Shown piece after piece: positions 1,953 through 62,976 of a stretch of DNA of 64,000 bases. Within the stretch, counting starts at the first letter, position 1; each line of letters starts with the position of its first letter. The notes under the pieces are model-generated. The model saw only the letters and a program-made list of their open reading frames with translations, did no database searches and was not told the origin of the DNA. Made by a program: the position numbers and the translations under genes. The stretch comes from Amphibalanus amphitrite (lineage: Eukaryota; Arthropoda; Thecostraca; Balanomorpha; Balanidae), in NCBI RefSeq assembly GCF_019059575.1, contig NW_024883012.1, forward strand, positions 1 to 64,000, written 5' to 3'.

Positions 1953-4900
1953 CTGAGAAAAAGAGCACGAGCAACTTGATACAATTACAAACTACACAAA
2001 TACAAACTTACTGAACCAGTGACAAAAAGATTGGAAGATACAGAATTCGGGCAAACATGTGGCCTTTGGCCATACTGACAAGTGTCACAAACGATCTAGA
2101 CAAGTGTCTAGCTCAGTACAAACGAGTAAATGTAACCAGTGCATACAAATGCAACATACACAAATATTCATGCGCAAATACTGGCAGTAAAATCACACTA
2201 AAATGTTGTGGTAACTTCCAACAGCTGCAATTGTGCCCTGTTCAGGTACGCAGTACCTATGTACTAATTAATATTTACAGGATTTTTCAGCATACCTACT
2301 GGCTGGCTGGCTGTCCGTTATAGCTTCGAAAAAGCACATGGTAAGTTATTGCAATTAATAAATTACCTGACACGGAATACACCACAGACGACTGCTGCCA
2401 AGATGGCGACCCCGACACAGGCTCCAACGGTGGCGGCAATAAAATGCACAGTGGATTGGTGAGCCACATCGGTGGCCATCATTTCTTGTTGGCGATTTTC
2501 CACGGACACACTGCTGTTCAGCACTTCGGTCATCCAGCCTCCTGTGATCAGAATATGACGTCATATGTGCGGCAGTATCGGTTATTCATGCCGCCTGAGT
2601 GATTAGAATGACTTCATATGTGGGGCAGTATCGGTTATTCATGCCGCCTGTGATTAGAATGACGTCATATGTGGGCAATATCAGTCATCTAACCCGACTG
2701 TGATTGGAATAACGTCACTTGAGTGACTGTTTTGTTATGAAATTATGACAAAATTTTGGTGTCTGTGAAATTTAGTCAGGCATCCAGCTTATAGCATAAA
2801 CAGAGAAACTACTCAAAAGTATGCTAGCAATTGGGCCACTGTCAACGTCAGTCCGACATTTAATCGCCAGTAGTCGGAGTATGACGTCACTCATGTACCG
2901 TTGGGAGTAACAAATAAACAATTGAAAACACAGAGATACAGCAGTGTTTGCATGTTATTAGAATAAACTCCTAACACAGAATACCCATATCAAGTACGCA
3001 TACACATATTCCACGTGAATAATTCTAGAACGAAAAGTGACGTGCATAAATCCACACACAGCCCCATTTGTGGGTACATACGTACCCTTCGTTGGTACCA
3101 GTTGTTCGTTGCCGTTCCAGCTACTGTGGTTCAAATGTGTACCGTTGATGGGATCTGCACCCATTCCCATGTCGTCCAGAACATCTGAAAATAATGTGCC
3201 GTGTCAACACATCACACATACCTAATATAATGCATTGAAAGATTTCCTCGCATCGAAAGAAAACTAAAACAGTTTGTCAGAAAAAAAGTCTAATGACAGC
3301 TCTATTGCCCACATCACAATAGTTTCATGACCAATATCAGAGCCACTGTCAGAATGGTATACCTACCTAGTTCGTTTCTTTTTCTAAGTTCGACCCGCGA
3401 CCGTCACTGTAAACGTTTCTTTGAACACAACACCATAATTGGTACCTAGCTGAATTACTGAGAAAATCGTTGGCGAACATGGATTTCGAAGACGATAAAA
3501 TGTAACAATATTATATCTACCTGGCTCCTATTTCCCAGACTCGCAGCTGGGTATTTGCAACCCCACAAGGATCGAGGACTTGTTAGGAAGTATAACTGAA
3601 CTAATTAATAAATCGCACGGCGTATAACGTAAAAGTATATCATCGGTGTTAGAAGCTTAATTTTGAAAAAAAATTATACTTAATGCACGGTTTCCCGTGC
3701 ATAAATGGTTTTAACGCACGAGATGAGTGATTAGAGCACGAGTGTGTTAATGCACGAGTGAAACGAGTGCATTAACCCTCGCCGGACCTATTGGTTTTCT
3801 ACATACGCGCCGGCCGAGGGGGGGGGGGGGGCGGGTACGACCCCCCCCCCCTCGCCGTTTCGCCCCTGGTGGAGATAGCGCGTCGCAGAAAAAACGAGCG
3901 TGTGCACCGTTACGAGACGCAGAGATTGGTATCCGATTTTAAGGTCCTAGGTCAACCGGTGACCTCTGAGGTCAGGTCAAGTGCCCCAAGAAACGGTTCA
4001 GTTTTTGGTGAATAACTTCGCCAAAAACGGCCGCAGAGCCGCGATTTTGGCAGCATCGTGCTCGCCTCGCTCAGGCGCGTCGAATTATATACTTTTTGTC
4101 CGGGTCAGGTCAACTTGGGGTTTTGACCTCAGGTCAAGGTCAGGTCAGCACCCCCAGGTCACCCAGTTGGTCGAAAGAGGTCATGTCGCATATCATTCGA
4201 TTCGGCAGGTCTTCCTGAGTCCATTGGTGGCTTTCCCGACTCGCTAGCTCAATGTGATCAAGAGTTATTGACGAAAAACTAATATGACCTTGATGACGTC
4301 ATAAATGACGTCACGAAAGGTCAACATTGCAAAAGTGACGCATCTAACCTTGCAAGGAGAGCATCAAATCACGATTCTGTGTGCTTGATATAGTTGGAGA
4401 TCGTTCCTGGCGCCAGAATAGCAGTTTTCATTTTTCCCATTGACTTATAATGGTGAGGTCACGAAAATGACCTGACCTCATATGACCTTTAGGAAAAATC
4501 CGAGATATACAAGTTGTGAGACTCATAATGGATACTAGATCCTGCAAGTTTCATTTCCCTGTGACATCTCCTCTGGCAGTGAGGGCGTTGCGAAATTGCG
4601 ACATCTGAAGACCGTGCAGAGGTTCACTTATGACGTCATAGGTCAGTGACCTGACCTGACCCAAAAATGCGGTTGGTGTCAAAAGATCCGGCTTGAATCA
4701 AAGGTCAGGTATGCCAAGTTTCAGCTCTCTATCGCCAGCGTGTTCGGAGCTATCGCGAAAAAACCCTATGGGGAGGGGCGGCACCCGCCCCCCCCCCCTC
4801 GGCCGGCGAGGGTTAACGCACGAGTGCTCTAATCACTCATCGAGTGTGTTAAAACTATTTATGCACAGGGAAACTGTGTATTAGAAATATTAATATATGC

Positions 4901-7900
4901 TTTAACCCGCGCCCTGGTGGGGGGGCTATTTTTTGCCCCCCCCCCCTCCAGACTTTTCGATATATCTCCAGAACCGCTGCGCCGATCGTCACCAAACTTT
5001 CAGTACCCTCCCGGACATCAATTTTACACATTGTGACTAAAAATTTTTCCAAAGGCTATGATAGGTTGGCCAGAAATGACGTCAGAGTGACGTCATGTTC
5101 TGCCGTTTTCGACACAAAAAAGGGTTTCGCGGGAAGAGCTGTCAGGCCTATAGCTTTGCAAATACAGAAAAACGGCAATGACATAAAAGCTGTAAAATTG
5201 ACAGGGCTACAAAACTGCTATCTTTGATTTTTGAAATTTTTGGATTTTGACCCCTAAAAATAAAAAAAAAATATTTTTTTTTTGAACATACTAGCCGGAA
5301 AATCCAAAAAGGTTTTTGAATTACACAAAAAACGGAATATATGTGATAGCTCTTACCACCTATCCACATACCAAATTTCAGATTGATATCTCTTTTTTTG
5401 GCGAAGTTATAGCGAAAAAACTGTTCAAAATTGATGACGTCAAATTTTCAAACTCAATTTTTAGCAATTCTAGACCCCGTAGCGCAATACAAAGACCACC
5501 ATTAAGGCCTGGCTACACTATGCGTTTTCTTCGTGCGTTTTTTGCGTGTTTGCGTGTTTTGCGTGATATCGTTCTAGAAAAAAGAGCGATATTACGTTTT
5601 TGTGATGTTTTTCACCTTCAATTTTAGTTACATAAGAGTTATATTAGCTTTTGTATATAACCAAAGTAAAAATTATATTGTTTATAACATTTTTTCCTAG
5701 AACGATATTACGCAAAACACGCAAACCTGCAAAAACGCTCGCAGAAAACGCATAGTGTAGCCAGCCCTTTAGACTCCCCGTGACGAGCTGCATCGAATCA
5801 ATACCCATTTTATGCAAAACTATCAACTTTAAAATTTGACCTTATTTGACCTGGCCTTGACCTGACCTTCACCGGAAAGTGACCTAAGCCGTACCTGATA
5901 GTCTTATAACCAACACCATTGAGTTGGAAATGAACAATTGGCCATAAAACATGCATCGCACAACCATAGTACCTAAAGTTAGGTTCATGTGACCTGACCT
6001 GTGACCCTTGGTGACCTGACATGTGACCTGACCTGGTATTGTCAGTGACCTCTTATAGCAACATATGTACTAGGCACCTGACGCCCTATCGCTGATTCTC
6101 GACAAAATGCGTTTTCTTCGGTGTTATAGCGCATTCCCTAGAAGACCCGTGAACGGTGAAACATTTCATCTTTGACCTGACCTGTGACGTCATCGGTGAC
6201 CCCGAGGTCAATGAAATTTGGTTTCCTTCGACAAATTTGACAGGGCTATCGAACGCCGTTTGAATTTTGCGGATCCGTCCAGTAGTTTCGGAGATACGAG
6301 GGGGGGGGGCAAAAAATAGCCCCCCCCCCCACCAGGTCGCGTTATAAACAGACCCCACCAGGGCGTGGGTTAAGGTGCAATTCCAGGCAATCGCCATGCT
6401 AAAGGGCTTTTATTTTGGGGCTACAGGGCTTGGTGTTTTAGGGATATAGAAAATTGTGAACGCATGCTTACACGATAGCAGCACTCTGAACTGTTAATTT
6501 TTTTTTTGTGCAGTGTATGGTCATGCGATAAATCGTCTCATTATTGACGAAGTTCGATAACGAAAATATATCAATTTGTTTGATAATAGGCGTGCGTTAA
6601 TATATATTAACACATGGTTTCCCGTGTGTAAATGGTTTTAACGCACGACGTGGATGGATTGGAGCACGAGTGTGTTAATGAACGAGTGAAACGAGTGCAT
6701 TAACGCACAAGTGCTCCATTCCATCCACGAGTGCGTTAAAACCATTTATGCACGGAAACCATGTGTTAAACTAATTAATACATGCTTAACGGTGCGAATT
6801 TAAATTAAAATAAACTTAATCCATGACACTAAATGGGCCTGTTGTGGGAATTCTTAAAAATAAAGTCAATGACCCTTCCGAAAAACTTCAGTCGAGAAAT
6901 TCATCAATGCACGCGCGTGCACCAATTTAAATTGGTGCACGGCTACCTTCGAATTAACGCACGGTTAATCTCCAGTGAACGCACCGTAAAGTATGTATTA
7001 ATTTCGATTAACGCACACTGAATTTCATTAGAGCACGCTCGTGGCAATAAAGCACTGGCTCTCCCAAATTCGACAACTTCGAATCCCCAGTGAACGCACC
7101 GCAAAGTATGTATTAATAGTTCATATCTCCAATAGAAAGTGCGTACCAAGTTTTGTCAGTAATTCAGCTCGCAATTATCGTGCTGTTTCCAAAAAGATGT
7201 TTACAGTGAGTGTCGAACTTAAAAAAAAAACGAACTGTAATAGTTGTTTTCACCACGGCCATCCGGTACACATTTAGTGCAGATCAGGTGTAAATTTGGT
7301 GCAGATTTGGTCAAATCAGGTTCAGTGTGCCTCTTAACCCGCGCCCAGATGGGGTCTGCCGAGCAACGCGGTCTGATGGGGGGGGGGGGGGGCCATTTTG
7401 GCCCCCCCCTCAGATCTCGAGAACCACGCAACATAGCGACAAGCGGTAAACGGTGTTGGATAGCCCCAACAGGGAACTACCTTGTGACCCAATTTCATTG
7501 ACCTCGGTCAAACCGATGACGTCACAGGTCAGGTCAAAGGTCGAATTTTCACCGTTTACAGGCATTTCAAGAAATGCGTTGTAAAATCGTGTAAAATGCA
7601 TTTCATTGAAAATCATCGATGGGGAAATGTTCTTCAAACACATATTTTGCTATTTGAGGTCACTGATACCAGGTCAGGTCACAGAGGTCAGGTCACTGGG
7701 GGGTCACAATATGAAAGTGTCGTGTGATACATGTTTTATGGTCCATTTTACATGACAAATGCGATTATGTGGGTCAGACAGACTTTAGGGCCAGCTTAGG
7801 TCATGTTTTGGTCAAGGTCAGGTCAAGGTCAGGTCAAATTAGGTCAAATTTCAAAGTTGATATTTTTGCATAAAATGGGTATCGATTCGATGCAGCTCGT

Positions 7901-15887: not shown

Positions 15888-16921
15888 TTAACCCTCGCCG
15901 GCCGAGGGGGGGGCGGGTGCCGCCCCCCCCATAGGGTTTTTTCGCGATAGCTCCGAACACGCTGGCGATAGAGAGCTGAAACTTGGCATACCTGACCTTT
16001 GATCCAAGCCGGATCTTTTGACACCAACCGCATTTTTGGGTCAGGTCAGGTCACTGACCTATGACGTCATAAGTGAACCTCTGCACGGTCTTCAGATGTC
16101 GCAACTTCGCAACGCCCTCACTGCCAGAGGAGATGTCACAGGGAAATGAAACTTGCAGGATCTAGTATCCATTATGAGTCCCACAACTTGTATATCTCGG
16201 ATTTTTCCTAAAGGTCATATGAGGTCAGGTCATTTTCGTGACCTCACCATTATAAGTCAATGGGGAAAAATTCAAACTGCTATTCTGGCGCCGGGAACGA
16301 TCTCCAACTATCTCAAGCACACAGAATCGTGATTTGATGCACTCCTTGCAAGGTTAGGTGCGTCACTTTTGCAATGTTGACCTTGCGTGACGTCATTTAT
16401 GACGTCATCAAGGTCAAATTAGTTTTTCGTCAATAACTCTTGATCAAATTGAGCTAGCGAGTCGGGAAAGGCACCAATGGACTCAGGAAGGCCTGCCGAA
16501 TCGAATGATATGCGACATGACCTCTTTCGACCAACTTCGTGACCTGGGGGTGCTGACCTGACCTTGACCTGAGGTCAACACCCCAAGTTGACCTGACCCG
16601 GACAAAAAGTATATCATTCGACGCGCCTGAGCGAGGCGAACACGATGCTGCCAAAATCGGCGCTCTGCGGCCGTTTTTTGCGAAGTTATTCACCAAAAAC
16701 TGAACCGTACCCTGGGGCACTTGACCTGACCTCAGAGGTCACCGGTTGACCTAGGACCTTAAAATCGGGTACCAATCTCTGCGTCTCGTAACGGCGCACA
16801 CGCTCGTTTTTTCCGCGACGCGCTAGCTCCACCAGGGGCGAAACGGCGAGGGGGGGGTCGTACCCGCCCCCCCCCTCGGCCGGCGCGTATGTAGAAAACC
16901 AATAGGTCCGGCGAGGGTTAA
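15888..16921. mobile_element. TTAA element, family A copy 2 (inverse orientation)
   Basis: Closely similar to the copy at 3772-4816 in inverse orientation. TTAA flanks both ends; the short end is left and the long end right. It holds a perfect AGGTCA-C-TGACCT palindrome at 16048-16060 and the inverse of CCATTGACTTATAATGG at 16247. Confidence 0.85.
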
Positions 16922-23548: not shown

Positions 23549-24745
23549 TTAACCCGCGCCCGGCTGGGGGTCCTGGATTTCCACGCCCTGCTGGGGGGGG
23601 GGGGGTGTTTGAACACCCCCCCCCTTCTAACTCGGCTCCTGGGCCACGTAGCGATACGCGGAAGGCGGCGTTCGAAAGAGCGTCAAAAATAATGACGAAA
23701 TCACTTCGGTCAATTTTTTGGTCAGGTCAAAGGTCAGGTCACCAGAGGTCATTGAAGGCAAAATTTCGCCGATTTCCAGGTCGAATGTCGAAAATTTCCA
23801 AGAAGCCAACGCATAACTCGGGAACCAATAGAGCTACAGCGCCGCGGAAAAACGCATTCGATAGCCCTATTAACGCCCTTCCTGAGTAATTCTCTCAGAT
23901 TTGACCTAACGTCAACGGTTTTGCCTGCAGGGGGCAAAAACTGCAAAAATAGCCGATTTTTTCGGAAATAGTTTTCTGCAATAACTTTTGACCCAAGCCT
24001 TGTACGAGCTTACTTTTACCGGCATCGTGTTCCTCTCGTCAAGACGCATCGAATGAACTGTAACTTGACCTTGAAAGGTCAACTTGAAAATTTGACCTCA
24101 GGTCAAGGTCATGACCTGACCAGAAAGGGTCATGTTGCATATCAGTCGATCCGTATCGTCGAGCTGAACACATCTAAGGTGTTTTCATCGCTCTAGCATG
24201 CCTCTATCAAAAGTTATTTGCGAAAAACTGTTAGATACCATTCGTGACCTAAGATGACCTCAGGGCATAAACAGGGGTCACGGACACCATTTTCATGTTC
24301 AGTGTGTCTAAACCACTTGTAATTCAGTGTTTGGGAGTGTTTATAATGTCTTTCGTTCGAAAGAGACGCATTTCAATTTTCTCCCATTGACTTATAATGG
24401 GGAGGTCGCAAAATTGACCTGACCTTAGGTCATCGATATCAAAATTCTGAGATATACATTTTGTACATGCTATTGCTCTTAGCAATCGCTGAAAGTTTCA
24501 AAGCGATCGGTCATTCGGTGTAGCTATGACAGACATTGAAACTTTTTATGAGGTGAGGTCACTTCAAGTGACCTGGTGACCTGACCTTGAATACCCTCGG
24601 TCTGAAATTTTCACAACATGTGTAGAATTGATGCATGATAAGGTGTACCAAAAACGGCGGCGCTCCGCGCCGCCGTTTTTGAGATATTTGCGAAAAACCA
24701 CAAGGGGGGGTGTTCAAACACCCCCCCCAGCAGGGCGCGGGTTAA
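23549..24745. mobile_element. TTAA element, family E copy 1
   Basis: TTAA flanks. The left long end is CCCGCGCCCGGCTGGGG, then a second CTGCTGGGG word; the right short end is CAGCAGGGCGCGGG. The hairpin core is GTGTTTGAACAC. It has the internal 17-mer CCATTGACTTATAATGG near 24384 and a GC hairpin near 24656. A copy in inverse orientation is at 42519-43698. Confidence 0.85.
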
Positions 24746-25409: not shown

Positions 25410-26090
25410 CTCGTTGACCTTAAAAGGTCATTTGGAAAATTTGAACTCAGGTCAAGATCATGACCTGACCGGAAAGGGTGATGTTGCATATCACTCGATA
25501 CGTATCGTCGAGGTGCATATATCTGGCATTTTTTCATCGCTCTAGCACGTCTCTATCAAAAGTTATAACCAAAAAACCGCTGGTGACCGTCCATGACCTG
25601 AGATGACCTCAGGGGCACACAGAGGGGTCAAAGGTGCATTTTTCCGATTCAGTTTGTCATGTTTACCTGTGAACCGATGTTTGAGAGGGTTTTGAACACC
25701 ATTCGTCCAAAAGAGGTGCATTTCAATTTTCCTTTCCCTTGACTTATGGGGAGGTCAGAAAATTGACCTGACCTTAGGTCACCGATATCAAAATTCGGAG
25801 ATAAAAATGTTGTACATACTTTTACTCATATCAATCGCTGAAAGGTTCAAGGCGATCGCTCAGTCGGTGTAGCTATTACGGAGATTGAAACTCTTTCTGA
25901 GTTGAGGTCACATGGCGTGACCTGGTGACCTGACCTTAAGAGCCCTGGGTCTGAAATTTTCACAGCATGTGCGGAAAAAATGCATGAACAGATATGCTAA
26001 AAACGCCGGCGCTCCGCGCAACCGTTTATGAGATATCTGCGAAAAACCGCAGGGATAAGTCAAACACCCCCAGCCCGGGGTGGGTTATTG
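25410..26090. mobile_element. Decayed family E TTAA element (left end lost)
   Basis: Parallels the interior and right end of family E, for example the CACAGCATGTG and GGCGCTCCGCGC segments. Its right terminus is eroded (GCCCGGGGTGGGTTAT). The left terminus is missing. Confidence 0.7.
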
Positions 26091-27542
26091 TAATGTATAA
26101 TGTTCAAAAGGATAATCATTCTAAAGCTTTCCAGTTCGATGATCATCATTTTGAAAAAGTCCTGTTTTAGATAATCCTTCTATCTGCTTCCCACGAACCA
26201 TACATTCTATTCTCGCATGCCTAACTTAGTGTTTGGAAGTTCAGCTTAAAGGACAAAAACAATCAAATGACATGCATTGCAGCCTTTATTACGCATCTTT
26301 TACAGCATACCTAATCCAAACCAAACAAAATTTCAGACCGATAGCGTAGTTTACGATGTCCGCTTTACTTTCATTGGCTGCGAATTGTAAGCATCTCAGC
26401 AACAGTCAAGAAAATCGATAACAAAGTAAATAACAATATCACCTCCTAATTTATCTCGCAAAATAACATATCGTACACACATGCCGGCTCCCCACAAGTT
26501 AACCAAGTTGCTAAACCTGGTAAACAAAACAAATTCTTGACAATTTTTGAACAAATAATCGCATGGTACAAGTAATCAGTTGCTTCTAATTAGGCATTAT
26601 CCAGTGAGCAATGTCATTTGTGTAGGCAACTGTAAAGGAAGTCATATCTTACTGCAAGCAACAACCATGCACGCGCTTTTTCACATTCAACCGGTCAGCA
26701 TACATCATACGCCAAGCTGAATTCAAACATAAAAGTCACACATGCCCACATTTTTACAAACGGTAAACGGTGTGAGGAGCATGGAACCTTCGCCGGTGTT
26801 CCTATAATAGCTATGAACAACTCATTCCAGTATCGTTGAGTTGGCAAACTTCTGATAGTTGACAGATGACACAAAGCTATAGCTACGTATCGGCAAAACC
26901 CTGGTCCATGTTTTTTACCTATGACAATAGATGGCGCTGTAAAAGGCAATAGATGGCGCTGTTGAGGCACTCAAACACCTCAGTGAAGCTAGAACTACCC
27001 TAGAACAGCCGCCTCGTCCGTGTTATACTTTTTATGCACACATCTCTCGTGCGTTGAACACTGCCCGGCAGCTTAATTCAGCAACGATCAGCGTCTTTTG
27101 TTTTATGGTGTCGCTTAAAAATATTGCTAGGCTTTTCTGCAACCCATCTCCACTCACATAAATTTCTTGGTTATTTACGTCGCTGATCGCATTAGTAGAA
27201 AATGCCTTGGCTTATTTCCTTACCAATCACACCGATAGACTTCCAGGCACGCCTATAGGCTAACGGTCGCTCTCATCCACAGCGATTCTACAGTTAAGTT
27301 TGTTGCATGCTGAGTGACAGATACAGGCACCAAGGCGACTGCATTTCACTGTTGGCGATTTTTCGGCTATGTTTGCTGCACAGTGCATCTGCAAGCACCT
27401 GCCAACGAAGCGTATGTCTCTGGTAAAATCACAACTTTTGGGTTCTACCACGTCGCATGTTGAATCTTTAGGCACCTGCACCGGGGCTAGCGCACGTAAC
27501 GCGTGCTACCCTCACTCTTCTAGTCGATGCGACCGATTGCGC
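26091..27542. other. 3' flank of the asparaginase-domain gene
   Basis: Unique sequence that probably includes the 3' untranslated region of the minus-strand gene ending at 27543. AATAGATGGCGCTGT is present twice near 26928 and 26949. No coding exon is supported. Confidence 0.4.
26285..26290 (-). other. Candidate polyadenylation signal (AATAAA)
   Basis: AATAAA on the minus strand, followed by a TG-rich stretch, about 1.25 kb downstream of the stop codon at 27543. It would imply a long 3' untranslated region. Confidence 0.4.
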
Positions 27543-32039: not shown

Positions 32040-32429
32040 GGTTCCCCTAAAAAGTTCAGGTCTCTGTCGTTTCAGGTCAGGTCACCAGGTCACAAAAAAA
32101 AACTGGCACAATGTCAGGGTAAAATTCGACTATATTAGCGGGAACGGACGGAATCGCTAAGTTTATCGTTCATAGCTCGATAACAGTGAAACGAAGGGCC
32201 ACCAAATTTCAGCCAGAACATGGCGCAGCCATAAGACACGTTTCCTAGGAGTTTTGTGTTCCAGTGACCTCAGGTGAGGTCACAAGGTCACAAAAATCGG
32301 CACATGGTCAAAATGGCAATGAAAATACGCTATATTTTGTCAATGAAATATAGAGTTGCTCATCGATTTGATTCAAACTGGCAGGATATGCTAAGTTCAC
32401 CGAGTTGCCCTAGTGAAAAAATCCTACAG

Positions 32430-32790
32430 GATTTGTACCAAAATCCTGTACGTCCCTACAGGGTCGTGCAGGGTTGCTGGAGTAGCCGTACAGGATTTCA
32501 TGCAGGCAACTATGGCTGTACATGGAATCCTACAGGGTGCCCTGCACGACATCCAACAGGGGACCCTGTACTGAATCCTACAAGGAGCCCTGTACGGTAT
32601 CTGATAGGGAGCCCTATAGGGAATCCTACAGGGCCCTGTAGGGAATCCTTCAGGGAGCCCTGTATGCAATGATACAGGGAGCCCTGTGCGCAGTCATACA
32701 GGGAGCCCTGTGCGCAGTCATACAGGGAGCCCTGTACCCAGCCATACAGGGAGACCTGTACGCAGTCATACAGGGTCTTATAAGATTTTA
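32430..32790. repeat. 24-bp minisatellite (ACAGGGAGCCCTGTA core)
   Basis: Repeats of ACAGGGAGCCCTGTA plus a variable 9-10 bp linker. The core is itself an inverted repeat. It belongs to the left end of the 2.5-kb element. Confidence 0.85.
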
Positions 32791-33602
32791 CCAGAATCTT
32801 AACACTATCTTACATGATCTTATAAGATTTTAAAGACAGTCTTGCAAGGCCTAGCAGAGCTTGTACAAGATTGGCCAACATCATACAGAGCTTATAAGAA
32901 TCTGTCATAGGCAGATTCTCGCGAGAATGCTGATTCTGGTAAGATTGAAGAATCTTACAAGAATGTGCTGATCCCATGGAAGGCTACTCCCGCTAATCGT
33001 TTTTCGCATAAATCATAATTAAAGAGCTCTCAAGCAAATGCGATCATTTGCTCCACACGGACTACGTGGAGAACAGTTGTAAACGATGCACCTGTCAAGT
33101 AAAGTATGAGGACTGAGGAGTACCTACCTAGGGAGAAATGACTCGCCCCGGTGCGTTGATATGTTGGACAATGGACATTTTTCTCAATCTGCAACCTACC
33201 GGGATTTATTCATCTCCTCAGGACGGTACTGCTCATTATTAGAACTGGCGGGGACATAAACATTCGAATGTTGTTGTCAACATTGTCCCGATATATAGGG
33301 AATTACGAATTGTGAATTGATCCCTATAAAAGAATCGATTCACTTCATAACTCCCTAATCCTTTCATAACATTATCATCTTAATTTGACGCGTTGCTGTA
33401 CTGTATTATTCTGGGACTAAAGTGTGCATTTGTGCGCTGTGGTGATCTTTCAGAGACTGTACCGACTGGAATTTAGCGACCACTGTCCGTTTTAGAGACC
33501 GTACGGTCGGCGGCGGGCGTCCCGATCCTCGCCTGGGGCGGAGAGGGGAGCGCGCGTCCCCCTCCGCCGCATTCCGTCCGTCCCATTCACTGCCCGCTCG
33601 CG

Positions 33603-34237
33603 ATGTGCGGAGAGCCGACGGAAGTGTCGAGTGTGTGCCGTGCGGTGTCACCTGCCGTCTCCTCTTCCGACCTGAAGGTAAGTTTCTGCCATTCTGTATT
33701 GCTGGGTAACAATAAAAAATTGTTCTCAATATTTGCAGCATTACAGACAAAAAAACGGTGCCGAAACGCTCACTCAAAAAATAGCTGATCGAAAAAAAAT
33801 AGCTGAAAAAATAGACATTTAAATGTCTACTATCAGATACCAGAGCGCATTAGTAGCGGCGACGCTACTACATACTCAATAGTAGCACACAACATTAATT
33901 CAATATTGAAAATTGGTTGAATCCAGGTTGATTGTCAACATTGAAGATCAACCGTTTTTCGACATCGATCCAGCATTTATTTCACGTTGAATTTGCGTTG
34001 TATTTGGTTGATAGGAGATTGATATGCAATATTGTGATACAACATCAAAACAATGTTGTATGCCGATCACTTTGTATCGCGCTGTATGTATCACTTTTAT
34101 GCCGATTAGTTACTTTCGACGGCAGGGGTCCCTTCAATCAATATACCTATTATCATTGTAACATGTGAATATCCACCTTGTTACAGGAACGCAGGATGCG
34201 AGGATCGTCGGGCGACACCACCACTCGAGATTCGTAG
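33603..34237 (+). CDS. Possible two-exon 41-residue open frame inside the 2.5-kb element
   Basis: ATG at 33603 runs 25 codons (MCGEPTEVSSVCRAV and on) to a GTAAGT donor after 33677. The acceptor TTGTTACAG at 34178-34186 continues in phase for 16 codons to TAG at 34237. It resembles no family I know. A captured host gene fragment or chance are both possible. Confidence 0.2.
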
Positions 34238-34486
34238 ATCGATGGACGGAGCGGCAGCCGCGACGCGACGAAGTGTGTCGTAATGTGACGGGATGTGACC
34301 CGGAAATGGGTGTGTATTTATCCCAGAAATACATTTATTCCGAATATTGACTTTGTCGGTAACGCGGGAACTCGTGGGTCTTTTTAGCATTCCTGGTCAA
34401 CCGGCTCAAGATGCCCGAGTCGGAGGTGCCCGAGTCGGAGGTGTGCTGAGCCGCTGTTTTCAACAGCGGCTCAGCACAATAACAAG

Positions 34487-34828
34487 ATGCGGAATACTTA
34501 TAGAATGGCGAGTGTGGTGCCCTGTACGAGATCCTTTACGATACCCTGTACGACACCGTGCACGGTACCCTGTACGACACCGTGCACGGTACCCTGTACG
34601 ACACCGTGCACGGTATCCTGTACGACACCGTGCACGGTACCCTGTACGAAACCATGCACGGTATCCTGTACGACACCGTGCACGGCACCCTGTACGACAC
34701 CGTGCACGGCACCGTGTACGGCACCCTGTACGACACCGTGTACGATACCGTGTACGGTACCCTGTACGACACCGTGCACGGTACCATGCACGACACCGTG
34801 CACGGTACCCTGTACGGCACCCTGTAGG
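34487..34828. repeat. 24-bp palindrome-rich minisatellite
   Basis: Repeats built from CCTGTACGACACC and GTGCACGGTA. Each unit contains the perfect palindrome ACCGTGCACGGT. Because the unit length is divisible by three and the unit is self-complementary, open frames of 90-170 codons appear on both strands. They are artefacts. Confidence 0.9.
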
Positions 34829-35254
34829 AACCCTGGTAACAATTTCGTCAAAAATCCTGTAGGGTCAACCATACAGGGCTACCCTGTAAGATTTTTTCAC
34901 TAGGGTGTATAACCTACATCCAGATTTTTAAGTTTTCGTGACCTGAGGTCATCTAGAGGTCACGACAAATTTTAGGAAAATTTGTCTAAATAGCTCCAAT
35001 TGTAAAAATATGCTCCATTTCAACGTTTTTGTGTTGTTTTAGCTCCTATAAAGATGAATTCGGTGATTGCTTTCTGAAAAAAACACCTAGGTCAGGTCAT
35101 CTTAGGTCAAATTAGGTAAAACTATTTTTGCCAATAACTTCGCACACAATGAGGCTAGAGCTTCAAAAATGGTGTAATTGTGTTCCTTGTGATCGGCCCA
35201 ATCGAATGATTTTTGATATAATGCAATCTGGTCAACTTGAACTAAATTAATTAA

Positions 35255-36804
35255 CAGAGCTGGGCATTGCGCAACTTAAGTCCGCAACTCCGCAACTCCG
35301 CAACTTGCGGACTACCCTCTTGGTAGCGGAGTTACGGATCGGCTACCGAGCCCAAAAAAGTTGCGGAGTTGCGAGTTGCGGAAGCGAAAAATTCTAAAGC
35401 GCAACCGCTACCGGGGCCGCCACCGCTGGTGGGGGCGCCACTGTACTCTTTGCACTCCACTGCACACTGCACGTGTTTCCAGGCTAGTTTTTGAAGCTGA
35501 TTTCGAATTTAATGACCGTTTGAACATTTACGAAGTAGTTTTAGTGCCTTAGTAACATGTTACGAGGCTTTCAGTGGTGGTTGACACTGGATAGGCGGTA
35601 GGACGCCTACTGGTTGACCTGACCTGACCTGACCCAACCAGGCCCAAATGCATGAAGACGTCATCTTTGACCAAAACCAACATGAAATTTGTTATCAGCC
35701 CCCCCTCCCCCCAAAAAAGCATAAAAGCTTCACTTTACGAAGTTCTAGCAGGTCCGATTTTCCCGACTTTTGGGTCATTGACCTGGCCTGGAAGGTCAAC
35801 CAACTTCATGACCTATGACCTTAAAATTGGGTATCATCGGCTTCCTCTCGTCACGGGCAACACGCTCGTTTTTTTCCCGCGAAGCTCTAGCTCGATCAGG
35901 GGCCGAACGGCAGGGGGGAGGGGTCCGACCGACGTACACGTTAGACGCTGTAAAACACCGCATGACAGCGAGGGTTAAGTCAAATTTTTGTGGTCGCCAG
36001 CACGGGGCCGGGGGCGGGGGGGGGGGGGTGTTTGGACACCCCTCCGTAAGGTTTTCCACAAATATATAAAAAAGGCGGCGGCAGCGCGGCTGTTTTCGAC
36101 ACTGCTATTAACACATCCTTTCCACACATTGTATCAACATGTCAGACCCAGGTCACCTCAGGTCAGGTCACCAGGTCAAGTCAAGGGACCCAATTTCCGA
36201 AAAAAAATTTAAACACCCGCCCTAGCAATACAGGGCAATATAGCAATATAGATACACCTATTGACCGATATCACTTTGATACTGTCTGCATGTGACAAGG
36301 GTAACAAGATATAGGTACAAAGTGTATTGTCTCATATTTTTTTTATATTTGTGACTTAAGGTAAGGTCAACTGTGTGACCTCTCCATTATAAGTCAATGG
36401 GAGAAAATACAGCTCGTCCGGATTTGCGGCAAAATGATCCCAAACAACTAAAACATGCAAAGAGTAGCACTGGCAGGTCATTTACGTCGACTGGTGTCGC
36501 AATGACTTGCGCATTGAGCATTATAGGTCACGTGACGTCATCAGAGGTCACCAACAGTCAGGTCACCAACAGAGGTCAACCAAAGGTACTACCTGTCAGA
36601 CATAACACTGCACTTCAGGACTAAAACTGATAAAACATAGGAACCTAATAGAGGTTGGTAGCGGAGTTGCGGAGTTGCGGAGTTGCGAGTTGCGGTTTTA
36701 CGATCTGCAAAATAGTTTCGGAGTTGCGATTGCGCTTTGGGTACCTTAGGTTGCGGAAGGTAGCGGTAGCGGTTTCCACATTTCGGTAGCGATGCCCACC
36801 TCTG
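35255..36804. mobile_element. hAT-like element with 8-bp duplication TTAATTAA
   Basis: Ends CAGAGCTGGGCAT and, in inverse, CAGAGGTGGGCAT. TTAATTAA stands at 35247-35254 and 36805-36812. Next to both ends are short repeats of GTTGCGGA or its inverse. The interior carries pieces of TTAA elements: a family H remnant ending at the TTAA at 35975, and another right after it with a G-run near 36008. Confidence 0.8.
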
Positions 36805-36922
36805 TTAATTAAAGTTCACTTAGAATTTAGCAAATTTTAAGTTCACATAAACTGGATCAAAATATTTCAATCGATGCGCACTGATATGCTGAGTTCAGTG
36901 GTGCTTTTCTTATTGCTCTATC

Positions 36923-37932
36923 TTAACCCTCGCACCGACGGGGGGGCGGATATCCGCCCCCCCTGAGGTTTTTCGCGAATAGCGGAAAAACCGCGGCGCG
37001 TAGCGCCGCGAAATTTTGTATGACTATAACCTCATCAATTTTACACGTGGTGTGCAAGTTTGAACTTCCTACCTTTTAAGGTCAGGTCACCAGGTCACTT
37101 TGAATGACCCAACCTCAAGTCACTTTTTTGCAACTTCGTCACCGTGCCAGAGCTACAGTAGATGTCGGAGGCCTTTAAAAGTCGCAGGATATTATTAGGT
37201 CATTAGTAGCTACAATTTGTATATCTCGGAATTTCGATATCGGTGACCTAAGGTCAGGTCAATTTCGCGAACTCCCCATTATAAGTCAATGGGGGAAAAA
37301 TCAACTCCCTGTTTTTACCACTAAAACGGGTCGGAATGGCCCCATATACCATACATGACTTCATATACGATCAACCTTCACTACCTTGAGGTCTGTTTTG
37401 CTGTTGGGCAGCTGTGAGGTCATGTGACGTCATCAAAGGTCACCAAAGGTTTTTGGCCAATAACTCCGTACAGGAACAAGATACAGACGCGTGGATGGTC
37501 TCATTGTGTTCAGCTCGTCAAGACGCATCGAATGATATACATGATGACCTCGAGGTCACGTGACCTGAGGTCAACCTTTGACCTTGACCTTTCGAGGTCA
37601 ACATATATATCATTCGATGCGGATTGACGAGAGGATCACGATGATGCCCTTAATTTGTTCCTATCTTGACTAATTCGAAAGTTATTCGAGAAAAACTCTC
37701 TCCATATCTAGCGCCGCCATTTTGACTTTTTCGACCCCTGTGACGTCATCTTTGACCTGACCTGAAAATGACCTTTGTAAAAATTGTAGATCTTGGCCGT
37801 GCGTATCCGATGCCGTTTACCGCTTGTCGCTATCTTGCTTCGTTCTCGAGATCTCAGGGGGGGGGGCGGTCATCCGCCCCCCCCCCCCGTCGGTGCGAAG
37901 TTGGCGCAGACCCCCGTCGGTGCGCGGGTTAA
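36923..37932. mobile_element. TTAA element, family G copy 1
   Basis: TTAA flanks. The left short end is CCCTCGCACCGACGGGG; the right long end has the GTCGGTGCG word twice. Hairpin cores are CGGATATCCG (left) and CGGTCATCCG (right). It is inserted in family F copy 2 where the intact copy reads CTTAATTAG near 62718. A second copy is at 49532-51729. Confidence 0.85.
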
Positions 37933-38196
37933 TTACATCAAAAGTTATATGCGAACAACTTTTGACCTGTTTTAGCGAATTTGTACATTTATAGGCTCCC
38001 CAAAAGAACCCCTAAACATTGCCCTAGAGCAACCAAATTTGCACAGATGCGAAATCTCCTATGGGCCCACCTAACCTGCAAATTTGGTGTTTCTAAGTGC
38101 CATAGGAGCCAATCACCAGGGGGATGGGGTCGTATCACCCCATCCCTCCTCTGGCCGTCCCCGTAATGAAAAAGGCCCTGGTTTAGCGAGGGTTGA

Positions 38197-38993: not shown

Positions 38994-39887
38994 TTAACCC
39001 TCGCATGTGTGCGGCGTTTGCCAGCTTCTAATGTGTAGGGGGGGGGGGGTCGGTTGGACCCCCCCCCCTTGCCGTTTGGCCCCTGATCGAGCTAGAGCTT
39101 TGCGGAAAAAACGAGCGTGTTGCCCGTGACGAGAGGAAGCCGATGATACCCAATTTTAAGGTCCTAGGTCATTGATTGACCTTCCAGGTCAGGTCAATGA
39201 CCCAAAGTCGGGAAAATCGGGACCTGTTTGAAAGTCGTAAAGTGTGGCTGCTAAGGGGTTTTTCGAGGTGCTGATCACGAATATCGTGTTAGTTTTGATC
39301 ACAGATGATGTCTTGAAGCATTTAGACCAGGTCGGGTCAGGTCAGGTCAGGTCAACCAGTAGGCGTCGTGACGGGTATTCGTAGTACGTGTCAACCGCCT
39401 CTGACAGCTTCGTAACATGTTACGAAGTCACCAAAACTACTTCGTAAATGTTCAAATGGTTGCTAAATTCGAATTCAGCTCCAAAAACTAGCCTAGAAAC
39501 ATGTACAACTCGAAAAAGTGACCCGAGGTCACCCGAGGTCACCAAAGGTCAATGACCTGACCTGACCTTCAGGTGACCTTGACACACACGGCAGTAACAT
39601 CAAATCACATGTTTGAACGTTTGAAACCACGAAAAGCTTGCAAACACGCGGCTAGTGCGAGCCGACATACGCGAAATCGCGATTCCGGCCAAACATGGTC
39701 TCGGAAAAGAGGTCACAGGTCAAAGGTCATTTGGGTCAGGGTCATGAAATTTTCAGGGTAGGTGTAAAATTGATCAATGCGAGGGTACTGAAAGTTTCGT
39801 CGCGATCGGCCGCTTTTTACGCGAGTTATTCGCGAAAAACCATGGGGGGGGGTCCATCCGACCCCCCCCTACACATGCGAGGGTTAA
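38994..39887. mobile_element. TTAA element, family H copy 1
   Basis: TTAA flanks. The left long end is CCCTCGCATGTGTGCGG with a later ATGTGTAGGGG; the right short end is CTACACATGCGAGGG. Hairpin cores are GTCGGTTGGACC and GGTCCATCCGACC. It has a perfect AGGTCA-A-TGACCT palindrome at 39546-39558 and a direct repeat with one spacer at 39717-39729. Its right edge is about 70 bp from the predicted poly(A) signal of the secreted protein gene at 40412. Confidence 0.85.
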
Positions 39888-44381: not shown

Positions 44382-46237
44382 TTATCCCTCGCCGGCACAG
44401 GCCATTTTGCGTCCTTCGACGGCACAAGGGGGGGGGGGGTTGGTTGGTTGGTACGACCCCCCCTCGCGTTTGGCTCCTAATCAAGCTAGAGCTTCGCGAA
44501 AAAAAACGGGCGTGTTGCCCGTCACGAGAGGAAGCCGATGATACCCAATTTTAAGGTCCTAGGTCATCGGGTGACCTTCCAGGTCAGGTCAGGTCAATGA
44601 CCCGAAAACCGGGAAAATCGGGACCTGTTAGAAAATCTTAAGTGTGGCTGCTATGTGGTTTTCCGGGGTGCTGATCACGAATATCGTGCTAGTTTTGATC
44701 AGAGATGATGTCTTTAACCCGCGAGTTGCTGGGGGGGGGGCGTTAAACGCCCCCACTTTTTTACGCCGGGCCGTAGCATAAAAACGGCGCGCCGCAGGCG
44801 CGCCAAATTTTAAGTACCTGTAGGGAATTGATTGAAGTTTATTGTGACAGAGTTTCAAAAAAATCGGTCGGAAAATTTTTGAGATATCGAGGTTTTAGTG
44901 ACGTCATGATTTCTGAGTTTTCGACCAAAAACGGCATATGTTCAAAAAATCATATAAAATCACAGAATAGACATATAAACATGCCGTAAACGCCATTAGA
45001 CTCCCAATACCATGAATAATCAAATGGCTATCTTCGATTATTGATTTTCGTTCCGCATTTTCCAAAATCTTGAACTGAATCTTGGCAATTTCTCGTGACT
45101 ACTTCACGACCATGACACATGAATTTCTTAAATTGAACTTTTTTAGCCAAACACGTACACATATGATAAAATGAATGTCACCATCGTGTTCTACGCCCCA
45201 AATAACCCATAAAAAATGTGTCACAGGCTGCGAATATCAGTTTTTATTTTCGGGGATATGTGCCTGCCCGGTTGACCTGACCTTGACCCTGACCTATGCT
45301 TGACTGACCCCTGCATGGAGCAGACACTCTTGTAGGCCTTATATGATGGATTATGCACCGTTTTGACAGAGTTTATGACGAGAGGCGCCCATTGCGAAGT
45401 CCTGAAGTCCATGCTACTGAAAGCCCGATTTCAGGTGTTTGACCTGACCTTGACCTGACCTGTGACCTCAAAATTCAAATTTAAAGTACTCATCTGAAGC
45501 GTCTTGTCGCGTTCTTTCGTTTGCCGCCTCGTGCGTTTCGCTGCGCCTATTGGTTCTCGAGTTATCGGCTGGGGGCGTTTAACGCCCCCCCCCCCAGCAA
45601 ACGGTGGGTGGCGAAATACCCCAGCAACTGCCGGGTTAAGCATTTAGACCAGGTCGGGTCAGGTCAGGTCAGGTCAACCGGTAGGGGTTGTGACGGGTAT
45701 TCGTAATACGTGTCAACCGCCTCTGACAGCTTCGTAACATGTTACGAAGGCACCAAAACTACTTCATAAATGTTCAAATAGTTGCTAAATTCGAATTCAG
45801 CTCCAAAAACCAGCCTAGAAACATGTAAAACTCGAAAAAGTGAACCGAGGTCACCCGAGGTCACCAAAGGTCAATGACCTGACCTGACCTTCAGGTGACC
45901 TTGACACCCACCCTAATGTATGGGAGCAACATCAAATCACATGTTTGAACGTTTGAAACCACGAAAAGCTTGCAAACGCGCGGCAATGCGAGCCGACGCC
46001 CGACATACGCCGAATCACGATTCCGGCCAAACATGGTCTCGGAAAAGAGGCCACAGGTCAAAGGTCATTTGGGTCAGGGTCATGAAATTGGCAGGGTAGG
46101 TGTAAAATTGATCAATGCGAGGGTACTGAAAGTTTTGTCGCGATCGGCCGCTTTTTACGCGAGTTATTTGCGAAACACCTTAGGGGGGGGGGGGGGGGGT
46201 TGCATCAACCTGTGCCCCCTGTGCCGGCGAGGGTTAA
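44382..46237. mobile_element. TTAA element, family H copy 2, split by family J
   Basis: The left flank reads TTAT, the right TTAA. The ends CCCTCGCCGGCACA and TGCCGGCGAGGG differ from copy 1, but the interior matches it closely. It holds a perfect AGGTCA-A-TGACCT palindrome at 45868-45880. A family J element occupies a TTAA at 44714-45639, where copy 1 reads continuously as GTCTTGAAGCATT near 39311. Confidence 0.8.
44714..45639. mobile_element. TTAA element, family J
   Basis: TTAA flanks. The left short end is CCCGCGAGTTGCTGGGG; the right long end has the CCAGCAA word twice and closes with GCCGGG. The hairpin core is GCGTTAAACGC and itself contains a TTAA. It has fewer AGGTCA sites than other families. 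Next to the left end is GGCGCGCC-rich inverted sequence. Confidence 0.85.
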
Positions 46238-48080: not shown

Positions 48081-48082
48081 TA

Positions 48083-52692: not shown

Positions 52693-55068
52693 TTAACCCG
52701 CGCGGGGCTGGGGTCTCCAGCCGAACGCGCGGGGCTGGGGGGGGGTAAATTTTACCCCCCTGTTATCTCCCGAACTAATGGTCCGATTTGGAAAATTCAA
52801 ACGCCAATCGAAAGCTCTCATCACGAACTACTAAAAACATGTACTTAATTTAAAGTTTGAGGTCAAGGTCAAGGTCAGGTCAAGGGTACAAATTGCAAGT
52901 TTCTACAGTATCGGCCTTGCACCGTAGCCCGCGACCTGGTGGGGGGGGGGGGGCTATTTTTTGCCCCCCTCCAGACTTTTCGATATATCTCCAGAACCGC
53001 TGCGCTGATCGTCACCAAACTTTCAGTACCCTCCCGGACATCAATTTTACACATTGTGACCAAAATTTTTTCTAAAGGCTATGATAGGTTGGCCGGAAAT
53101 GACGTCAGAGTGACGTCATGTTCAGCCGTTTTCGACCCAAAAAAGGGTTTCGCGGGAAGAGCTGTCAGGCCTATAGCTTTGTAAATACAGAAAAATGTTT
53201 AGAGCATAAAAGCTGTAGAATTGACAGGGCTACAAAACAGCTATCTCGGATTTTTGAAGTTTTTTGATTTTGACCCCCAAAAATCAAAAAATAGATTTTT
53301 GGGATATAACAGTAAAAAAATCCAAAAAGTTTTTTGAATTTCGCAAAAACCGGAATATATGTGATAGTCCTTACCGCCTTCCATCCACATACCAAATTTT
53401 AGATTGATACCTCTTTTTTTGGCGAAGTTATAGCGAAAAAAAAACTGTTCAAAATTGATGACGTCAAATTTTCAAACTCAATTTTTAGCAATTCTAGACC
53501 TCGTAGTGCAAAAACAAAGACCACCATTAGACTCCCCGTGACGAGCTGCATCGAATCGATACCCATTTTATGCAAAAATATCAACTTTGAAATTTGACCT
53601 TTTTTGACCTGACCTTGACCTGAGCTCCACCAGAAAGTGACCTAAACCGTACCTGATGGTCTTATAACCAACACCATTGGGTTGGAAATGAAAAACTGGC
53701 CATAAAACATGCATCGCACAACCTTAGTAAAGTTGGGTTCATGTGGTGACCCTTGGTGACCTTTGGTGACCTGACCTGTGACCTGACCTGGTATGACCAG
53801 TGATCTCTAATAGCAACATATGTACTAGACAACTGACGTCTTATCGCTGATTTTCGACAAAATGCGTTTTACTCGGTGTTATAGCGCTTTCCCTAGAAGC
53901 CCCGTGAACGGTGAAACATTTTATCTTTGACCTGACCTGTGACGTCATCGGTGACCCCGAGGTCAATAAAATTTGGTTTCCTTCGACAAATTTGACAGGG
54001 CTATCGAACGCCGTTTGAATTTTGCGGATCCGTCCAGTAGTTTCGGAGATACGAGGGGGGGGGGCAAAAAATAGCCCCCCCCCCACCAGGTCGCTTTATA
54101 AACAGACCCCACCAGGGCGCGGGGTAGTTGCCGAAGAATGGAGTCATGGACTGAGACTGATCGCCCAAAACGTGTTCTTAGGCTACCAAGACAATATAGT
54201 ACAATATCATTCAGAGGTCAAGGTCAAGGTCAGGTCAGGTCAGGTCAGGTCACCAAAAAACAAAATATAGAAAAGAACATGTGCGACACATGTTTTATGG
54301 GTCATTTTACTCATAGAATTCAATAGGCACACTCAATAGGTGATATGGACCACCTCTGGATGAATTTCAGGTCGAGGTCAGGTCAAGGTCAGGTCAAGTG
54401 AGGTCAAATTTTGAAGTTGGTTGTTAAGGCCTAAAAAGGTGTCTATCTGATGCAGTTTTTCACGGCGAATCGAATGGTGCTATTTTTTTCCGTACGAGGT
54501 CTAGAACTTCCAAAAAAGTCATTTTTCAAAAAAAAAATTGTGTGTCGTGACGTCATAAAATTTTGAATAACTCCCACATTTTCCAACCGATTCTTCTAAA
54601 ATTTGGTATGTAGGTGCACATAGACCACTTCTCTGACATATATTCCGGTTTTTTCGATAGACTCAAAATTTTGGATTTTATAATGATTTTCCCAAAAGGT
54701 CAGTTTTTTGAAAAAAAATTAGGCCAAAATCCAAAATTTTCAAAAAACCGAGAAACCCATTTGATAGACAAAGTAAAATTACGTATAACCTTTTTTGTTA
54801 CGTCTTGATTCCTTTAAAAATGAAGATGTTAGCGGTGTTTGAACTTTTGCCGTTTTTGAGGCGAAAATGGCGAACATGACGTCACTAAAACGTCAATTTC
54901 TCAAAAAATTTCCGACGGATTTCGCTCAAATTTTCAGGGAACGTGTCAAATTGATGTAAGAAAAGGTACTGAAAGTTTGGCGGCGCTGCGCGCCGCCGTT
55001 TTTGAAATATCGCAAAAATTCGCGAGGGGGGGTAAAATTTACCCCCCCCCCAGCCCCGCGCGGGTTAA
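52693..55068. mobile_element. TTAA element, family K, split by family B
   Basis: TTAA flanks. The left long end has CGCGCGGGGCTGGGG twice; the right short end is CAGCCCCGCGCGGG. Hairpin cores are GTAAATTTTAC and GTAAAATTTAC. A GC hairpin lies near 54980. A family B element sits at 52924-54127. Confidence 0.85.
52924..54127. mobile_element. TTAA-superfamily element, family B copy 2, in a GTAG target
   Basis: Ends CCCGCGACCTGGTGGGG and CCACCAGGGCGCGGG. The core is GCTATTTTTTGC. The flanks are GTAG at 52924-52927 and 54124-54127, a matching 4-bp duplication that is not TTAA. It is closely similar to the copy at 4902-6373 but lacks the Harbinger-like insertion. Confidence 0.8.
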
Positions 55069-55979: not shown

Positions 55980-56849
<870 letters not shown>

Positions 56850-56880: not shown

Positions 56881-56910
56881 CAGACGAACGAATTCGCGGG
56901 TGGCGTTACG

Positions 56911-60146: not shown

Positions 60147-60154
60147 CGGACAAA

Positions 60155-60211
60155 ATGACGAGGCACACGAGGATGATTGCGGCAACGCTGGGGATTATTG
60201 TACTGGCACAG
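60155..60211 (+). CDS. Secreted GGVP-repeat protein exon 1
   Basis: Nineteen codons ending in Gln, then the donor GTGAGC. The intron is 342 bp. Confidence 0.8.
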
Positions 60212-61458: not shown

Positions 61459-61944
61459 TTAAAGGGACCCTCCAAACTTCAAAAAAGTTTATGAATTGGC
61501 ATAAAAGTGATGTCGCTCGGTTCAGAAAGAGCGAAAACGAATTTCTACCAAATTTCACCGAAAAATATTCACCGGTTTTCAAAATATTTGACTTTTAGTT
61601 TTGTTTACTTTTTTGGGATCTCCGCTGTTTCTAGTGACTTTATTTTAGAAGTGCGGCGTTTGCGGCAGATGTTGCGCGCAAGTAGCATATACCACCGCGT
61701 GCTAGAAAACGTTTTAGTCAAACATTTAAAAATCGTTAGATATCTGCGCTGACGTCACACATTCAGAGGGGTATTCCTAAGCATTAGCCCCGCTGAATCA
61801 AAATGCTGCAATTTTGAAATTCAATATTTCCGATTTAAGGCATTTCTCGATGCTGTGAGAGCCGAAACCGGTAATTGTGAGCCAGGGACCCCATTTTGGC
61901 TATCTCAACTCAAATCTAATGTTAAGGTGGGAGGGTCCCTTTAA
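61459..61944. mobile_element. TTAA-flanked MITE with AGGGACCCTCC ends
   Basis: Inverted ends AGGGACCCTCC; TTAA at 61459-61462 and 61941-61944. It differs from the CCC(T/G)CGC superfamily. Its right TTAA is also the left TTAA of the following family F element. Confidence 0.75.
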
Positions 61945-62976
61945 CCCTCGCCCTGGCAGGGGGGGGGGTCGATGCGACCCCCCCCCCCCCTGAGGTTTTT
62001 CGAAGATAGCGGAAAAAACGAGCGCCGCCAAATTTGGCACAGCCTATGGGGCAGCCTTTTTACATATGACCTGAAAATTTCAGGTCCGGGTGACCTTGGG
62101 TCAGGTCACCAGGTCAGAAAAACCGGTACAAGGTCATGGTCAAATTTCAATTTTCTTTTTGCACCTGTCCAACTCACAGTTTTCGACTGATTTCCTTCAA
62201 ACTTTCAGGATGTGCTAAGTTCACCGAGTTGTATAACATATAGTCCGTTTTTTTTAGGTCACTGACCTGAGGTCAGTTAGAGGTCATTACGTCGTAATGT
62301 TAAGCCTATGGGAAAATACTAAATTCGGAAAATACTGGAGATATCCGCTTCGTTTTATCACTTTTGTGCTTTGAAACCACGGTACTTAACAGCAGGTCAC
62401 TTGGTGCTTCTTTGTTTGGTGTACTTATCCATGGGTCAGGTCAAATGAGGTCAACTGAGGTCAAATGACGTTTTTGCCAATAGCTTGGCACATAATGACG
62501 CTAGAGCTTAAAAAATGGTATCATTGTGTTCCTAGTGATCAGCCGAATCAAATGATATGCGATATGATGCAATTTGGTTAACTTGAACTTAATTTATTAA
62601 TTTAAGTTTACTTAAAATTTAGGAAAAACTTTAAGTACACTTAAGCAAGCTAAAAAGTATATCATTCGACGCGCCTTGACGTGCTGAGTTCACTGGTGCT
62701 TTTCTTTTTGCTCTATCTTAATTAGATCAAAAGTTATAAGCGAAAAACTTTTGACCTGTTTTTAGCGAAATTTTTACATTTATACCCCCCAAAACCCCCC
62801 TAAATATTGATCTAGAGCAACCAAATTTGCACAGGGGCGAGAACTCCGGGGGGCCCACCTACCTACCAAATTTGGTGTTTCTAGGTGCCATAGGAGCCAA
62901 TCGCGAGGGGGGGGGTCGCATCGACCCCCCCTGCCAGGCCGTGTTATGAAAAATGCCCTGCCAGGGCGAGGGTTAA
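61941..62976. mobile_element. TTAA element, family F copy 1 (intact)
   Basis: TTAA flanks. The left short end is CCCTCGCCCTGGCAGGGG; the right long end has TGCCAGG twice. The hairpin core is GGTCGATGCGACC. It has a perfect AGGTCA-C-TGACCT palindrome at 62256-62268. This copy supplies the empty sites for insertions into copy 2 (32040-38196). Confidence 0.85.

Follow-up and report, generated by a model that had tools for sequence, protein, structure and literature searches.

Much of a 64,000-nt stretch of the Amphibalanus amphitrite genome (hereafter the window; contig C1515 of the 807.6-Mb genome) is taken up by short elements of the piggyBac superfamily, which are non-autonomous deletion relatives of larger piggyBac elements. 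Their ends combine a family-specific word with a palindrome, the word being repeated at one end with an offset of mostly 27 bp; word and palindrome vary together at the two ends of a copy, insertions carry precise 4-bp duplications, and autonomous relatives with like ends occur in the genome. We consider it very probable that a lineage close to the piggyBac of the moth T. ni has radiated here into many families, which would be mobilized by the mechanism set out below.

Elements in the window and their abundance

We found 17 elements with both ends, which cover 18.5 kb of the window, or 21.1 kb once fragments are added; these elements are real, and the nineteen copies in about 20 kb given in a preliminary description of the sequence were a fair estimate. 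Complete elements measure about 0.9-1.5 kb (mostly 0.9-1.2 kb) and are longer where a nested element splits them. In the list below, S is the single-word end, D the double-word end, and the strand is the inferred S-to-D direction.

3772..4816, minus strand: non-autonomous element, word CGGCCGA; D left, S right, TTAA duplication; 96% identical to 15888-16921
4902..6373, plus strand: element, word CCTGGTG, core GCTATTTTTTGC; S left, D right, TTAA
7334..8508, minus strand: element, word CCTGATG, core CCATTTTGG; D left, S right, TTAA
15888..16921, plus strand: further copy of the 3772..4816 family (CGGCCGA); S left, D right, TTAA
19075..19995, minus strand: element, word CCGCACA; D left, S right, TTAA
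21923..23064, no strand assigned: rearranged CCGCACA-family element with two S-ends (fold-back); self-inverted halves
23549..24745, minus strand: element, word CCTGCTG, core GTGTTTGAACAC; D left, S right, TTAA; both ends of autonomous L045 align
23553..23624, plus strand: example D-end; CCC tip, word, spacer, word repeated at +27 bp, G-run, palindrome, C-run
24704..24741, minus strand: example S-end; CCC tip, one word, G-run, palindrome, C-run
25413..26098, no strand assigned: CCTGCTG/CGGGCAG-group fragment, by alignment
32189..38194, no strand assigned: broken CCTGGCA-family element in pieces 32189-32407, 34896-35254, 36805-36926 and 37929-38194, with other sequence and insertions between
35468..35983, no strand assigned: ATGTGTA-family fragment with decayed D-end, by pattern and alignment
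36014..36415, no strand assigned: fragment, relative of 42519-43698, by alignment
36923..37932, plus strand: element, word ACCGACG, core CGGATATCCG; S left, D right; sits at a TTAA of a CCTGGCA element
38994..39887, minus strand: element, word ATGTGTA; D left, S right, TTAA
42519..43698, plus strand: element, word CGGGCAG, core GTGTTTGAACAC; S left, D right, TTAA
44382..46237, minus strand: element, word CGGCACA, split by a nested element; D left (TTAT), S right (TTAA); ends of the L036/L077/L078 kind
44714..45639, plus strand: nested element, word GTTGCTG, core GCGTTAAACGC; TTAA; S-end type of transposase locus L057
49532..51729, minus strand: second ACCGACG element, split by a nested element; TTAA
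49855..51046, plus strand: nested CCCGTTG element, inserted at ATAT
52693..55068, minus strand: element, word GGGGCTG, core GTAAATTTTAC, split by a nested element; TTAA
52924..54127, plus strand: nested CCTGGTG element, inserted at GTAG; S side judged by alignment to 4902-6373
61941..62976, plus strand: element, word CCTGGCA, core GTCGATGCGAC; S left, D right, TTAA

Outside the listed elements, the window contains a 92% identical 0.67-kb duplication (47109-47782 and 63130-63805). There are also two low-complexity open frames of about 400 aa (40415-41629, minus strand, and 57429-58640, plus strand; GTAGLAG repeats and Y/P-rich repeats), neither of which gave a Pfam match above cut-off, and tandem arrays at 17762-18301 (22-bp unit), 20714-21663 (20 bp), 34516-34835 (24 bp) and 55997-56273 (2 bp).

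The pattern TTAACCC[GT]CGC occurs 12 times on the plus and 14 times on the minus strand of the window, and genome-wide it was counted 45,339 and 45,493 times (sum 90,832), versus 373 and 361 (sum 734) for the reversed-pattern control. Given two ends per element, we estimate very roughly 45,000 elements and 50 Mb across the genome. The signature TTAACCC-N8..38-G6-N6..20-C6 was matched 34,936 times in forward orientation versus 6 in the control; its reverse count (117,350 versus 3) was set aside because alternative gap lengths probably inflate it.

Target sites and traces of mobility

TTAA flanks 14 of the 17 complete window copies on both sides, as the preliminary description had it, whereas one copy has TTAT and TTAA and two nested copies lie between ATAT/ATAT and GTAG/GTAG, respectively. 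Removal of the nested element at 49855-51046 together with one ATAT from its ACCGACG host restores the letters of the sister copy 36923-37932, revealing an exact 4-bp duplication, and the element at 52924-54127 shows an exact 4-bp GTAG duplication against empty sites in loci L003 and L005. The target is therefore usually, not always, TTAA. For the TTAA insertions, 36923-37932 has an exact empty site in 61941-62976 and the empty site of 44714-45639 matches with one substitution, which is the precise 4-bp TTAA target duplication of the piggyBac superfamily.

Architecture of the two ends

We collected 35 paired ends (13 from the window, 22 from other loci) and kept 34, the pair at L073:37-1193 being removed as its two ends belong to different families. 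This sample holds 24 different S-end words, each counted through one representative; L044 and L054 form one family and others are close relatives, so that the words are incompletely independent. The S-end reads CCC-N4-word-G-run-core-C-run, with the palindromic core starting 18-28 bp from the tip in the 24 sampled words, while the D-end has a like tip and word, then the word again, G-run, core and C-run, and its core starts 45-56 bp from the tip.

The distance between the two word starts in the D-end is 27 bp in 19 of 24 words, 26 in four and 28 in one (ties resolved in favour of 27), which is tighter than the 20-40 bp spacer first described for this second word. Mean word identity reaches its maximum of 0.77 at an offset of 27 and is at most 0.42 at other offsets. 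At least six of eight letters match at 26-28 bp in 21 of 24 words and at exactly 27 bp in 16, compared with a mean of 0.29 and a maximum of 3 of 24 at 27 bp in 500 interior shuffles. Core palindromy is 0.62 (S) and 0.54 (D) versus about 0.25 expected from composition. G-run length ranges from 5 to 15, and the distance from tip to palindrome is therefore not fixed; slippage after insertion could explain this variation.

One single-word and one double-word end were present in 16 of the 17 complete window copies. The claim that the word stands once at one end and usually twice at the other thus describes all but the element at 21923-23064, in which two single-word ends face each other and the inverted halves are 74% identical. 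The ends have the CCC-type termini of the piggyBac superfamily, with CCT at the S-end of L045/L048 and TCC at 21923 as exceptions. CCC(T/G)CGC, taken earlier to be universal, does not hold for 44714-45639 (CCCGCGA and CCCGGCA tips), and CCCTATT, CCCGGCN and CCCTAGA tips are found elsewhere among the genome matches listed. A strong GGCGGCGCG..CGCCGCC inverted repeat lies just interior to the S core (e.g., window 24655-24675) and is common to otherwise dissimilar families.

The letters of the two ends change together. The S word and the outer D word of the same copy differ on average at 0.67 of 7 positions versus 4.02 when permuted (5000 permutations, lowest 3.0), and the S word and the inner D word (best of offsets 26-28) at 1.08 versus 4.05. 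Core similarity within a copy is 0.83 versus 0.53 permuted (highest 0.645). Across the 24 representatives, words and cores are thus matched between ends as first described. The palindromes of one copy are alike but sometimes non-identical (e.g., CGGATATCCG and CGGATGACCG), and in the second autonomous family described below the S and D words differ at 2 of 7 (L054) or 3 of 7 (L044) positions. One comparison gave practically no correlation among the distances for word, core and subterminal sequence (rho -0.14 to 0.14), but its pairwise aligner penalized gaps so lightly that shuffled sequence reached 0.72, and we draw no conclusion from it in either direction.

Autonomous relatives and their transposases

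We searched the genome with the PF13843 profile, obtained 116 scored matches and fetched 49 loci, about 38 of which, by eye, show at least one likely end of their own (about 30 conventional and eight of the G-run type). The tips of conventional piggyBac elements here are CCCATTA and similar. Within the window, the four frames scanned had no PF13843 match, and contig C1515 holds none of the 116 scored matches and none of those scored for the L045 protein (72 genome matches, mostly partial).

The search for an autonomous copy with the same ends, proposed in the preliminary description, succeeded in two families, and PF13843 transposases encoded between such ends bear out the suggested piggyBac affiliation. 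The first family comprises L045 (433-5155) and L048 (108-4839), which are 4.7 kb long with G-run ends and a 666-aa frame, and are identical at 4,722 of 4,723 aligned bases (plus 9 gap columns) in differing flanks; L047 has the same frame and D-end as L045, its S-end not being visible in our data. The second comprises L054 (415-4385; 674 aa) and L044 (155-4131; 590 aa open), about 4 kb each, with a shared end pair. At L054 415-418 and L044 4128-4131, elements adjoin end to end on one common TTAA. Frames of 666-674 aa are thus open in several copies of two families, and three further families are broken. Broken relatives with further words are seen at L057 (S-end only) and L075/L076 (D-end only). 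At L036, with its flanks L077 and L078, CGGCACA-type ends about 6.6 kb apart, one adjoining CTAA, enclose a transposase frame with a stop, and nested copies interrupt the locus. Transposase-bearing copies with both ends therefore represent two families, or 3 of the 24 sampled S-words, and across the transposase loci with G-run ends different transposases do lie between different words, as had been supposed. The S-end is 5' of the transposase in L045, L048, L054, L044 and L057; the polarity of these ends relative to T. ni piggyBac is an assumption here. L028, a candidate for a further autonomous G-run copy, was rejected, since its 604-aa frame belongs to a conventional piggyBac with CCCATTAGTGCC ends (L028 7-3825) that lies within a CCTGATG G-run element.

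The transposases with G-run ends matched PF13843 with E-values of 1e-59 and 3.4e-68, and their best match among solved structures was T. ni piggyBac (6x67; E 1.3e-56 and 9e-79), spanning the cysteine-rich domain, while two conventional transposases tested from the same genome matched piggyBat best. At the sequence level, the ligand order of the cysteine-rich domain in L045, L054 and L036 is T. ni-like (C2C-n-C2C-4-C2H-n-C2C). In the tree, a 100/100 branch separates L036, L056, T. ni and the four G-run rows from 20 other piggyBac rows of this genome, which include some near-copies; T. ni itself sits on a long branch (1.06), and its letter make-up is unlike that of the other rows. The label "G-run" alone requires three changes on this tree because the L036, L056 and T. 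ni rows are unlabelled.

The window copies have sides homologous to these autonomous elements and no recognized transposase, as MITEs do. Several of them align to the outermost parts of L045 (~720 bp at its start and ~740 bp at its end), at 59-69% in all pieces but one. The copy at 44382-46237 has ends like those at the L036 locus, with pieces of which it shares 87-94% identity; the S-end of 44714-45639 is that of L057, and on this side the two are 74% identical over 339 bp. Elsewhere in the genome, L074 is a 949-bp deletion relative (MITE) with ends as in L054 and sides 90% and 86% identical to it.

Mosaic structure of ends and interiors

The preliminary description called the ends modular and swappable, and in three comparisons ends or subterminal blocks are at odds with interiors. 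The interiors of the GGGGCTG and CCCGCTG elements are 90-93% identical, but just inside the two cores identity is 65% and 76%, and words and cores differ. L071 is 93% like the L054 family inside the D core, whereas over the 65 bp inside the S core it is 92% like the CCTGATG family and 66% like L054. Over the first half of the interior, CGTGCTG and CGGGCAG elements show 92-100% identity in most 60-column windows, yet their spacers, words and cores differ. We also compared blocks across 23 families, leaving out a run that gave zeros for some poorly aligned pairs. Among family pairs with any strong link, five were alike in all four blocks, 20 only in the S subterminal block, and four in other combinations. 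Modularity is thus partly supported, because ends and interiors are partly mosaic; the block data support some block exchange and fast change of ends but do not demonstrate free shuffling. L068, considered as a half-and-half mosaic, aligns over its whole length to 7334-8508 at 79%, and thus displays uneven divergence only. Among the matches listed, an S-end at G000:C1:349765-349816 carries a CCTGGCA word and an TTGATGCAA core as in the CGGCACA family, and is possibly a word/core recombinant.

Comparison with known systems

The layout, first described as unfamiliar, corresponds to the published asymmetric end organization of T. ni piggyBac. As printed in PMC3078864, the 63-bp T. ni end has AAAGATAATCAT at positions 7 and 34, 27 bp apart, and then a palindrome, and the 35-bp end carries motif and palindrome once; that paper names the 63-bp end 3' at one point and 5' at another. 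According to PMC7351741, a dimer of cysteine-rich domains binds the palindrome, which makes it a protein-binding dyad, and the same article calls the asymmetric piggyBac ends puzzling and enigmatic and also finds the long-end duplication with its 17-bp insertion puzzling. The barnacle elements share with T. ni piggyBac the TTAA target, the CCC tip, this arrangement of motif and palindrome at the two ends, the transposase core and the T. ni-type cysteine-rich domain. They differ in the many families per genome, in other words and cores, in the ATAT and GTAG insertions, and in palindrome arms made of variable-length G- and C-runs. The loop between the first two C2C pairs of the cysteine-rich domain is 21-23 residues here and 11 in T. 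ni, as counted from sequence strings, and this longer loop is a candidate reason for the G-/C-run arms.

Other systems are less similar. The piggyBat of Myotis lucifugus, as described in PMC11707139 and PMC13405395, likewise has asymmetric ends, inner and outer dimers, and a core-bound motif (GCGGGA) followed by a palindrome that two cysteine-rich domains bind, and the former paper pairs this motif with the palindrome read by that domain. One piggyBat end, however, is described as lacking the palindrome, the fold of its cysteine-rich domain differs, and the proteins here are closer to T. ni. The closest precedent for ends that diverge faster than interiors is provided by the CMITEs of corals (PMC2872659), MITEs of piggyBac type in which the terminal repeats vary more from family to family than the interior does. 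They are about 100 bp long, with six families and an estimated 1,600 or so copies in A. millepora; the account in PMC2872659 that we draw on mentions neither a palindrome nor a duplicated word and leaves the origin of the interiors unexplained, whereas here the sides align to autonomous elements. The literature searched yielded no description of the present ends, and the three papers in it that contain TTAACCCGCGC concern other subjects by title.

Alternative explanations

Kolobok was considered because it has TTAA in common with piggyBac and the first 30 piggyBac loci had other visible ends (CCCATTAGTGCC and the like). Kolobok elements share the TTAA duplication but, according to PMC9587614, have RR..YY termini, and they use another transposase; the CCC termini and the autonomous piggyBac copies rule this identity out. 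That any other TTAA superfamily (Kolobok, Sola3) gave rise to these elements is scarcely credible, even though the duplication is common to them and no transposase was recognized in the four frames scanned or among the scored matches on C1515, since a piggyBac transposase sits inside elements with these very ends. It is also quite improbable that the palindromes serve as DNA or RNA hairpins, a structural signal, and not as a protein-binding dyad. We folded the ends, as the preliminary description had proposed, and six window ends fold as ssDNA better than most shuffles (z -2.1 to -4.9); together with the variable arm length this speaks for hairpins. However, folding is expected of every perfect inverted repeat. 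In placement and symmetry the palindromes agree with the internal repeat of T. ni piggyBac to which the cysteine-rich dimer binds (PMC7351741), and these transposases contain the cysteine-rich domain.

The two ends might instead match through concerted evolution, by conversion or copying between ends and not by family-specific transposase recognition. The fold-back element at 21923-23064 and the mosaic blocks indicate that exchange or rearrangement does occur, but such a process leaves unexplained the fixed 27-bp offset and the single/double asymmetry amid changing sequence, as well as the same layout in T. ni, and the sequence just interior to the core looks unlike between S- and D-ends (by eye). 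We regard concerted evolution as an unlikely source of the match and favour recognition of each family's ends by its own transposase.

Proposed mechanism and implications

In the mechanism that we propose, the rarer 4-4.7 kb autonomous relatives would make a transposase with a DDE core and a T. ni-type cysteine-rich domain, which would move the non-autonomous copies by cut and paste, mostly into TTAA. By analogy with published structures, word and core would correspond to two known kinds of binding site: the CCC tip and word may be read by the catalytic/dimerization core, the G-run, palindrome and C-run may form a dyad to which two cysteine-rich domains bind, and a second, non-catalytic dimer may be seated on the additional D-end word. 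Word and palindrome may thus act as a code read by the transposase of the family. If each family is read by its own transposase, the two ends would be expected to change jointly in word and palindrome. Families may be founded in part through end blocks exchanged among elements. More tentatively, and in our view less likely than not, this two-part code, read by two protein domains, may evolve faster than the rest of the element, families may arise by matched replacement of end blocks at both ends, and the asymmetry and the 27-bp offset may be under selection; if true, transposon "speciation" would proceed by end exchange.

This genome, in which tens of thousands of copies fall into some two dozen families or more, offers a natural mutagenesis experiment on which end features matter, because nearly all sampled families retain both the asymmetry and the 27-bp offset as their letters change. 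The family-matched ends also form a natural data set on how piggyBac transposases may read DNA. T. ni piggyBac is a transposon used in genetic engineering and has the same lopsided end layout; paired transposases and ends from the barnacle may therefore provide material for new, possibly mutually independent piggyBac-like tools.
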